64,000 nucleotides of DNA from an uncultured Erysipelotrichaceae bacterium (lineage in GTDB: Bacteria; Bacillota_I; Bacilli_A; Erysipelotrichales; Erysipelotrichaceae). Each line of letters starts with the position of its first letter. Positions within the stretch are counted from its first letter, which is position 1. The translations under genes and the position numbers were made by a program. This document shows, piece after piece, positions 7,840 through 48,173 of the stretch. The notes under the pieces are model-generated. The model was given only the letters and a program-made list of their open reading frames with translations. It made no database searches and was not told the DNA's origin. Location: contig CAMVGT010000001.1 in the NCBI GenBank assembly GCA_947167125.1, forward strand, positions 124,001-188,000, in the 5' to 3' direction.

Positions 7840-8778
7840 ATGACCAAAGTAATCATCGCCACTCCCGTCCCTGACAGCAGAAAAGGTCTTTTCACTTCCA
7901 TTGAAGGTGCTGATATCACATTCATCGATCGTTCTTCCGTAACCCGTGAAGAACTTCTCGGAGCTGAAGTCATCCTCGGAAATCTTCCGCTTGATCTTGT
8001 AAATGATCTTCCGGATCTGAAATGGCTGCAGCTGGACTCGGCAGGAGCCAATACCTATTCATCTCTGAATGAAAACGTCACTTTGACAAACGCGTCCGGT
8101 GCTTACGGCATCGCGATCTCGGAACATATGATCGGATGCGTGTTCATGGTCATGAAAAATCTGGCACGCTATCTGGAAATCCAGAAGGAACATTCCTTTA
8201 CCAACCTCGGTTCCGTCAAAACCGTTGACGGTTCCAGAGTTCTTTCCGTCGGTATGGGCGACATCGGATCTTCATTCGCAAAAAAGATGAATGCGCTCGG
8301 CGCTGAGGTATACGGCGTCAGAAGAAATGTCCATGAGACACCGGATTATGTCAAAGCCATGTATACAATGGAGAATATGGATGAAATTCTCCCGGAATGC
8401 GATATTGTCGCTCTTTCCCTTCCCGAAACAGCGGAAACCATTCATCTCTTTGATGAAGCGCGCTTAAGAAAAATGAAGAAAGGCGCGATTCTCGTCAATG
8501 TCGGCAGAGGAACCGCGGTCGTCACCGAAGACCTGCTGAAAATCATGAAGGAAGGATATCTTGCCGGTGCGTGCCTGGATGTCACAGATCCCGAACCTCT
8601 TCCGAAGAACCATCCGCTCTGGAATACGGAACATGTCTATATCACACCGCACATTTCCGGCCGCTTCAATGCCGAAGTCACCTATGACAGAGTGCTGAAC
8701 ATCTTCCGTACCAATCTGCTTCATTATCTGGCGGGCGAACCGCTGGACAACATCGTAAACAAATCCATCGGCTATTAA
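7840..8778 (+). CDS. D-isomer-specific 2-hydroxyacid dehydrogenase (NAD-dependent)
   Basis: The 312-residue protein has the split fold of this family. The Rossmann NAD site GMGDIG is followed by charged residues. The catalytic Arg lies in LVNVGRGT, the Glu in the DVTDPEPLP segment and the His in ITPHISGR. The family interconverts 2-oxoacids and D-2-hydroxyacids; the substrate cannot be told from sequence. I chose the ATG at 7840 because TTGGAGG sits 8 nt upstream. The gene stands alone and ends at a strong bidirectional hairpin. Confidence 0.92.
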   Translation: MTKVIIATPVPDSRKGLFTSIEGADITFIDRSSVTREELLGAEVILGNLPLDLVNDLPDLKWLQLDSAGANTYSSLNENVTLTNASGAYGIAISEHMIGCVFMVMKNLARYLEIQKEHSFTNLGSVKTVDGSRVLSVGMGDIGSSFAKKMNALGAEVYGVRRNVHETPDYVKAMYTMENMDEILPECDIVALSLPETAETIHLFDEARLRKMKKGAILVNVGRGTAVVTEDLLKIMKEGYLAGACLDVTDPEPLPKNHPLWNTEHVYITPHISGRFNAEVTYDRVLNIFRTNLLHYLAGEPLDNIVNKSIGY

Positions 8779-8786
8779 AATCAAAA

Positions 8787-8815
8787 CGGGACCTGCATTC
8801 AGGTCCCGGTATTTT
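8787..8815. terminator. Bidirectional terminator between the dehydrogenase and the hairpin-array RNA
   Basis: CGGGACCTG and CAGGTCCCG form a perfect 9-bp stem with a 4-nt loop. T-rich sequence follows on both strands: GTATTTTG on plus and TTTTGATTTT on minus. It can end both the dehydrogenase mRNA and the convergent hairpin-array transcript. Confidence 0.88.
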
Positions 8816-8819
8816 GTAT

Positions 8820-9222
8820 ATATCGACCGGTGAGTGATTCACCGATTTGTCTTTGTATTTCACCCGGCGGTCAGCCCGTCGGTTTGCCTTTATATATCAC
8901 TCGATGACGGTGTCATCGATTTGTCTTTGTATATCGCCTGACTGCGTCTTTGCAGTCAGTTTGTAGCTGTATTTCACTCGATGGTTTCCCATCGATTTGA
9001 CTGTATATATCGCTCGATGACGGTGTCATCGATTTGTCTTTGTATTTCGCCTGACTGCATCTTTGCAGTCAGTTTGCTGCTGTATTTCACTCGATGGTTT
9101 CCCATCGATTTAACGGTATATATCGCTCGATGACGATGTCATCGATTTGCTTTTGTATATCGCCTGACTGCGGTTTCGCAGTCAGTTAAGTGCTGTATTT
9201 CACCCGGATTTTTCAACCCGGT
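8820..9222 (-). repeat. ~38-bp hairpin units arranged in a ~114-bp three-hairpin higher-order repeat
   Basis: Units at about 8891-9003, 9004-9117 and 9118-9222 repeat the same three-stem order, with small substitutions mostly in loops and linkers. Two extra leading units (8820-8890) have different stems that still pair. The last copy ends in a weaker CCGG hairpin near 9204-9221, itself enclosed by GTGCTG/CAGCAC pairing with the 5' leader of the predicted RNA. Confidence 0.9.
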
Positions 9223-9241
9223 ATTTCTTTCAGCACGAATG

Positions 9242-9269
9242 AATATAGCACTTTAAAAATGAATGTCAA
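9242..9269 (-). promoter_or_regulatory. Strong minus-strand promoter for the hairpin-array RNA
   Basis: TTGACA (9264-9269), a 16-bp spacer and TATATT (9242-9247) lie on the minus strand. An A/T-rich tract (GAAAAATCTTTTGAAAAAG) just upstream of the -35 looks like an UP element, as seen before highly expressed RNA genes. The predicted start is near 9235. Confidence 0.8.
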
Positions 9270-9374
9270 CACCTTTTTCAAAAGATTTTTCACGCCCTCT
9301 GAATGCAAGCGTTTTCAGCCGGAAAACACATCTTTTTCACACATCTGTAATACAATACATGCAGGAGAAATCAA

Positions 9375-33880: not shown

Positions 33881-34120
33881 AATGAAAACGTCCTTCGAGC
33901 AGACGCTCAAAGGACGACATAATCATCGCGGTACCACCTTTATTCCCGCAGTCAGACTGCGGACACTCATTCCCTTAACGCGGGTTTCTACGGGTATCCT
34001 CTCGGCAATTGCTTCGGGGAACCGGCTCCGGGACACGTTCCTTCCGCTTTCCTTTACCCTCTTCCACCATCCAGGGCTCGCTTGAAAGCTTCTGCGGGAG
34101 TACTTCTTCCTTTCACAGCT
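33881..34120 (-). promoter_or_regulatory. T-box leader controlling the arginine operon
   Basis: On the minus strand the conserved T-box sequence AAGGTGGTACCGCG lies at 33927-33940. It is followed by a terminator with long arms (CGTCCTT...AAGGACG, 33881-33916) and a T-rich tail. The 5' part has the stem I features GGAAGAAGTA and a distal GATGGTG loop. A CGT (Arg) codon at 34035-34037 sits at a plausible specifier position, but AAC and ACG overlap it and I did not fold the RNA. Uncharged tRNA would stabilise the antiterminator and allow transcription into argGHCJBDF-carAB. Confidence 0.93.
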
Positions 34121-34128
34121 TTAGCGCC

Positions 34129-47924: not shown

Positions 47925-48106
47925 ACTATCGCACAGTCCCAGGCAGGTCTCCCGGCTTGCGGAGCATTGTGAACTGCCGCCTTCTCAGTTTCCCAATGGC
48001 ATCATGGCGTTCACCCTCCGGTTACGGTGACGAGTTCGTACAGGATTTTCACCTGTTTCCCTTTTCACTGCGCCGATCATTTCCATGATCCGCAGCACCT
48101 GAAACT
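47925..48106 (-). ncRNA. Cobalamin riboswitch aptamer
   Basis: The minus strand carries the B12-box GCAAGCCGGGAGACCTGCC (47942-47960) and the upstream conserved AAACAGGTGAAAATCCTGT. It also has the GTCACCGTAACCGG and GGGTGAACGCCATGATGCCA elements in the right order. It precedes the DUF4430 and S-component genes with a terminator between. Bound adenosylcobalamin is expected to switch the operon off. Confidence 0.93.
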
Positions 48107-48173
48107 ATCCGTATTGATCTGTACAGCATACTGCTGCAGATCTATTTTCCCATTTCCTTACAGGATCTGTAAA

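Follow-up and report, generated by a model that had tools for sequence, protein, structure and literature searches.

A predicted family of noncoding RNAs with tandem hairpins and 18-nucleotide linkers in one genus of Erysipelotrichaceae

The RNAs CsrB, CsrC and RsmZ, which sequester CsrA or RsmA, share several properties with the hairpin array described here: they are free-standing multi-hairpin molecules with a repeated conserved motif, the number of motifs is variable, and they are tied to carbon control, as is likely for the array. However, their motif is a GGA in the loops, while the conserved motif of the array is a long linker kept strictly at 18 nt, no CsrA/RsmA gene was found in the host, and no Rfam family matched. 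Type III antitoxin RNAs (ToxI, CptI, TenpI) are also tandem units of about 36–40 nt located between a promoter and a terminator; the ToxI repeat is 36 nt long and the order is promoter, repeats, terminator. The array differs from them in that its units are non-identical, they are plain hairpins rather than pseudoknots, and no toxin gene adjoins them. The large ornate RNAs (OLE, GOLLD, ROOL, HEARO) are, like the array, long and highly structured, have their own promoter and terminator, and play an unknown or structural role. Unlike their single elaborate fold, the array consists of a small unit repeated in variable copy number, and it has no Rfam match. With respect to the control of expression, the Bacillus subtilis genes ackA, pta and ilvB, which are activated by CcpA, have a helix-phased cre box upstream of the −35 hexamer. 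A helix-phased cre-like box was found at the same place in most array loci, but in this case the putative target is a noncoding RNA and the binding of CcpA is a prediction.

The window analyzed is a stretch of 64,000 nucleotides of contig CAMVGT010000001.1, from an uncultured Erysipelotrichaceae bacterium. Its minus strand includes, between positions 8780 and 9236, 11 hairpins followed by a terminator hairpin, with eleven 18-nt linkers between them (Table 1). The initial annotation had described 11 hairpins with a centre-to-centre spacing of 36.5–38.5 bp and 18-nt linkers, and all of these elements were located as claimed. The linkers follow the pattern GYGAWATAYA-N4-YAAA and are unpaired in the centroid fold. 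The sequence GYGAWATAYANNNNYAAA matched exactly in nine of them and nowhere else in the 2.87-Mb genome, where a search for isolated units returned a single chance-level match (E = 6.9). The folding energy of the minus strand was well below that of shuffled sequences (z = −11.2) and that of the plus strand was equally low (z = −12.3); since both strands fold comparably, energy alone does not assign the strand. A 113-bp module of three hairpins occurs three times, with copies 100, 92 and 81% alike. Part of the regularity of the array is recent tandem duplication, and the similarity among its stems is partly due to the copying of this module. An encoded peptide was discarded because the short frames in the array are unconserved and the module length (113 bp) is not divisible by three. 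Comparison with Rfam 15 identified no match in the array region at the gathering threshold. When E-values up to 5 were accepted, the best matches were well below their cut-offs, and the architecture of the array had no counterpart among the 4227 Rfam families. No direct match was found in a literature search for this RNA.

Table 1. Features of the array locus (positions in the window)
Feature	Position	Strand	Hairpin centre	Basis
cre-like box TGAAAACGCTTGCA (CcpA/LacI-type operator)	9304–9317	−		10/10 core positions
Promoter TTGACA-N16-TATATT, A-rich tract upstream	9242–9269	−		11/12 consensus
Predicted start and 5′ segment GUGCUGAAAGAAAUA	9222–9236	−		start inferred from −10 position
P1 5′ strand GUGCUG	9231–9236	−		P1 test
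Hairpin H1 (CCGGGUU/AAUCCGG)	9204–9221	−	9212.5	array layout and folding
Linker 1 GTGAAATACAGCACTTAA; its CAGCAC (9190–9195) is the P1 3′ strand	9186–9203	−		P1 test and array layout
Hairpin H2	9164–9185	−	9174.5	array layout
Hairpin H3	9127–9145	−	9136	array layout
Hairpin H4	9091–9108	−	9099.5	array layout
Hairpin H5	9051–9072	−	9061.5	array layout
Hairpin H6	9014–9032	−	9023	array layout
Hairpin H7	8978–8995	−	8986.5	array layout
Hairpin H8	8938–8959	−	8948.5	array layout
Hairpin H9	8901–8919	−	8910	array layout
Hairpin H10, single A-C mismatch	8864–8882	−	8873	array layout and pair scoring
Hairpin H11	8827–8845	−	8836	array layout
Linkers 2–11 (18 nt each), H2 to terminator hairpin	8809–9163	−		array layout
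Linkers 2–6	9163–9146, 9126–9109, 9090–9073, 9050–9033, 9013–8996	−		
Linkers 7–11	8977–8960, 8937–8920, 8900–8883, 8863–8846, 8826–8809	−		
Three tandem 113-bp copies of three-hairpin module (array expansion)	8875–9213	−		
Intrinsic terminator, last hairpin of the array: 9-bp stem and T-rich tail TTTTGATTTT	8778–8808	−		
Terminator hairpin	8787–8808	−		

Relatives were sought by DNA search, by scanning about 85,000 species genomes for the pattern, and with a covariance model (R1) derived from 43 units of many species. Together these identified the same gene in 23 of the 70 species genomes of the source genus, and other species show the linkers, stems, promoter and terminator again in unlike sequence. 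Standard pairs accounted for 96.7% of the pair cells in the 43 units, and all nine stem pairs showed changes on both sides. Both-side changes were present in 98 cells, and the covariation score was 0.658 as compared to 0.024–0.126 when the partners were slid; as a caveat, units of the same array are paralogues, and the cells do not represent independent events. The initial annotation had taken the stems of the source array as covariation-like evidence and had named failure of pairing in homologous loci as one observation that would speak against an RNA structure. The comparison was carried out and the stems keep pairing across species; within the array, however, the initial annotation had counted as covariation a similarity that is partly a product of recent duplication. 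The count of distinct hairpins reached 91 over 24 arrays or fragments, with stems differing within arrays. When these were scored in a strand-symmetric manner, G-U pairs exceeded A-C pairs by 13 to 2 on the promoter strand (binomial p ~0.004), which indicates selection on the minus-strand RNA. Stem G-U pairs were very rare across all loci (e.g., positions 8827–9221 of the window), at 13 of the 661 pairs in unique hairpins, far fewer than we would expect for a family of RNA helices. Strict helical geometry or replication-time correction of near-palindromes may be behind this scarcity.

Stems (5–10 bp, mostly 7–9 bp) and loops (3–4 nt) vary across the family, and the conserved bases sit in the unpaired linkers. 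Among 67 units with clear boundaries, 64 had linkers of 18 nt. The bases G1, G3, A6, T7, A8, A10 and A17 did not vary in 60 distinct linkers; the motif used to pick the linkers fixes the first five of these bases, and their invariance is therefore partly an effect of the picking. Invariant bases flank every stem directly, AAA before it and GNG after it. The N4 portion (positions 11–14) is variable, position 5 is A or T in about half of the cases each, and Y2 and Y9 are mixed, both within single molecules and across species. Rarer linker variants such as GCGTAATA and TTGATATA also occur.

The promoter proposed in the initial annotation can be recognized, at a near-constant distance, in all loci with a complete 5′ end (22 genomes). 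In the family the layout consists of an A-rich tract, a −35 hexamer of the TTGACA or TTGCAA type, a −10 hexamer and then the RNA, in which a 5′ segment (AAGGAAAACAAYG or variants) is followed by H1, linker 1, more hairpins and the terminator hairpin. The 9-bp terminator hairpin and T-run, also noticed before, were found at the source locus and are retained across loci although the downstream neighbours differ. Many loci have a convergent 2-hydroxyacid dehydrogenase gene downstream, as does the source locus, and a divergent PAP2 phosphatase gene upstream. Other loci have a 4Fe-4S protein, a CvpA-like protein or others (unscanned neighbours were named by eye), and no protein gene is constant beside the array across all loci. 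Since its own promoter and terminator are kept wherever the ends are present, the array is best regarded as a gene of its own rather than the leader or attenuator of a neighbour. The start is predicted near 9236 and the end near 8780, so that this free-standing noncoding RNA gene would specify a minus-strand product of ~455 nt, the size anticipated by the earlier reading.

A long-range helix, P1, forms between the 5′ end of the RNA and the N4 part of the first linker. It is formed in 20 of 22 loci by sequences that differ from one locus to another (e.g., GUGCUG/CAGCAC, GCGUA/UACGC, CACUG/CAGUG and ACGG/CCGU), and the 5′ ends pair better with their own linker 1 than with those of other species (0 of 20,000 permutations were as good). 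It is hard to see what such locus-specific, long-range pairing would mean for DNA as such. Cross-species covariation, the promoter and terminator, P1, the G-U bias and the lack of an Rfam match all agree with the proposal, made in the initial annotation, of a minus-strand structured RNA of unknown class. Judging from the sequences, it is nearly certain that a new noncoding RNA family exists, and we hold its transcription from the minus strand with the same high confidence.

At the source locus, a cre-like box lies upstream of the −35 hexamer, at a distance of 48 bp from the first hexamer base. Searching the 150 bp upstream for boxes with at least 8 of the 10 core positions gave a match at 21 of 24 loci, as compared to 2.1 expected, and 16 of the 21 include the central CG. 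Measured from the −35 hexamer, the box starts group at −27, −37, −48 and −58, a period of ~10.5 bp; none of 20,000 random sets was as phased, or 4 of 20,000 if the boxes are collapsed to four positions. In B. subtilis, a cre located upstream of the −35 generally activates and the effect of CcpA depends on the face of the helix (PMC3463425). In two genomes (G002 and G063) the upstream gene points in the same direction as the array and stops 42–43 bp before the −35 hexamer, with the box in between; therefore, the box cannot serve a divergent gene there. The cre-like sequences of two other loci (G011 and L019) overlap a terminator-like hairpin and are ambiguous. The source genome encodes a CcpA-like LacI-family protein with ccpA as its best match (248 bits; next family, 141; cut-off, 442), and its identity as CcpA is not certain. 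Activation of the RNA gene by a carbon-catabolite mechanism of the CcpA type is likely on the basis of these predicted sites.

The repetition of conserved linkers at fixed length while the stems change freely fits an RNA with multiple binding sites. According to the model that we propose, CcpA or a close LacI-family relative would switch transcription on through the helix-phased cre-like box in response to carbon supply. The hairpins would act as rigid spacers that keep the single-stranded linkers accessible, with every linker forming one putative site for an RNA-binding protein, so that one transcript could titrate several protein copies and relieve or block the action of the bound protein on mRNAs. 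Gain and loss of units by tandem duplication would tune this capacity. A carbon-controlled, multi-site, probably protein-sequestering RNA is, in our judgment, the best overall explanation and one that we favour modestly; for the sequestering mode taken separately we estimate an even chance or slightly better. By analogy, the array RNA would work most like CsrB, yet a strict CsrB analogue was rejected since CsrA (PF02599) was not found in the 94%-complete source genome, with positive controls, and the source linkers have no repeated GGA or ANGGA. The linker consensus of the source array lacks GGA, and GCGGAATA linkers exist in few relatives only. The linkers have an A at nearly every second position, as does the distal-face site of Gram-positive Hfq. 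An Hfq sponge was nevertheless discarded because Hfq (PF17209) was not found in the source genome, again with positive controls. Since neither Hfq nor CsrA was found, the binding partner would be another protein. CcpA itself is a remote candidate, by analogy with Staphylococcus aureus, where it associates in vivo with RNA hairpins close to terminators (PMC9130240). In the source genome, the linker motif and its complement showed no clear enrichment elsewhere (89 near-matches outside the array versus 65 for the reversed control) and mRNA targets of a shared protein were not visible. If the linkers do bind a protein, it would be a new global RNA-binding regulator for which the array RNA is a ready bait. 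We also considered that the arrays could constitute a categorically new class, or 'hairpin ruler': a modular, copy-number-variable RNA whose fixed 18-nt linkers would dock an undescribed RNA-binding protein or an RNA-body assembly, and which would be subject to carbon-catabolite control in a lineage that yielded neither Hfq nor CsrA in searches. This may be so because no binding partner of known type can be assigned, and we give it somewhat less than an even chance.

The linkers could instead be multiple copies of an antisense seed, GYGAWAUAYA, that base-pairs with mRNAs while the hairpins keep the seeds exposed. Their A/U-rich and unpaired state is in agreement with this role, the repeated linkers could act on a single target or on more than one, and there is a precedent for carbon-controlled small RNAs in Spot 42. 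However, the linkers carry either A or T at position 5 and either C or T at positions 2 and 9, so that no single target pairs with all of them; such mixing would be tolerable for a protein but not for one antisense target, which disfavours base pairing. The absence of a clear genomic excess of the motif or its complement and the failure to find Hfq also weigh against it, and we consider this reading unlikely. Somewhat less probable still is a structural scaffold: linkers and hairpins together would form an RNA body, compact or multimeric, with YAAA and GYGA extending the stems through non-canonical pairs and the number of repeats setting the particle size, as in large ornate RNAs. The invariant bases next to every stem, the near-absence of G-U pairs with its suggestion of strict helical geometry, and the closing of the 5′ domain by P1 would fit a scaffold, but inspection by eye identified no covariation linking linkers 2 onward to anything, and a range of 2 to ~12 copies is hard to tolerate for a fixed particle.

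The near-perfect palindromes and the equal folding of both strands would also be expected of a DNA element bound as a duplex (operator, centromere or nucleoid site), with the RNA being incidental. This possibility is very improbable given that the palindromes differ freely in sequence while the asymmetric linkers are conserved, the excess of G-U over A-C is found on one strand only, the 5′ end pairs with linker 1 in most loci, and promoter and terminator fit the array exactly. Tandem weak plus-strand terminators that stop read-through from the convergent dehydrogenase gene are even more doubtful: several stems are followed by TTTG tracts on that strand and a scan called five array stems and one chance pairing terminator-like, but these T-runs are just 3 long, the most conserved side of the linker is the one far from them, and array and promoter are kept with other downstream genes (G067, G087, G073, G025, G081, G034). 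Equally improbable is a type III toxin-antitoxin RNA, with each ~37-nt unit excised to inhibit an endoribonuclease toxin, which has the unit length and gene order of ToxI in its favour and was rejected since the units of an array are non-identical plain hairpins, no toxin gene adjoins, and downstream genes vary among relatives; a search of the source genome for ToxN (PF13958) gave no match, but neither did the control genomes, which leaves this negative without weight.

The array gene is lineage-specific. Outside the source genus, no array was found among the sampled genomes (295 of the order and 395 of the class were searched, source genus included), and a match in Oscillospiraceae (L023), which lies in coding DNA and scored weakly with the model, was discarded as due to chance. 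Plasmids, phages and viral contigs had no array, for which reason a mobile, viral or plasmid origin was rejected; loosened patterns produced eight single viral matches with model scores of 15–30 bits, none of them an array, and the best of them (L105) was coding DNA. Named host records are metagenome-assembled genomes of uncultured Erysipelotrichaceae or 'Solobacterium', several of them from rumen or gut. The family is a well-supported addition to the known RNAs and comes from gut and rumen bacteria, in which post-transcriptional regulation seems to be unexplored. P1, the cre-like box and the restriction to a single genus were absent from the initial annotation. On the tree of the neighbouring dehydrogenase, the distribution fits one gain and about three losses, and more gains are also compatible. 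Several relatives lack the gene (G086, G070, G004, G033), including one (G086) that has the dehydrogenase orthologue with no array next to it; the gene is therefore dispensable.

The number of hairpins besides the terminator varies through tandem duplication, from 2 (G020) to ~12 (G081). The arrays offer a natural valency series, from 2 to ~12 sites, in which the evolution of sponge capacity by tandem duplication could be followed. The longest array (L021, positions 1–560, the same locus as that of G081) has a second linker-hairpin type, GCGTAATATRGCAAGGACCTGATGG..ATCATCGGGTAGATATA, which suggests two interleaved module types. One metagenome-assembled genome (G031, RUG11161) has two nearly identical array 5′ ends, L019 and L022, with different upstream genes, which could result from a duplicated array, a moved array or a mixture of strains. 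Several contigs (L011/L018, L019, L022, L016, L037) begin or end within or near the array, so that arrays may be undercounted in draft genomes. Two known RNA elements were identified elsewhere on the minus strand of the window: a T-box leader (RF00230, 113 bits) at 33907–34125 and a Cobalamin riboswitch (RF00174, 108 bits) at 47925–48117.
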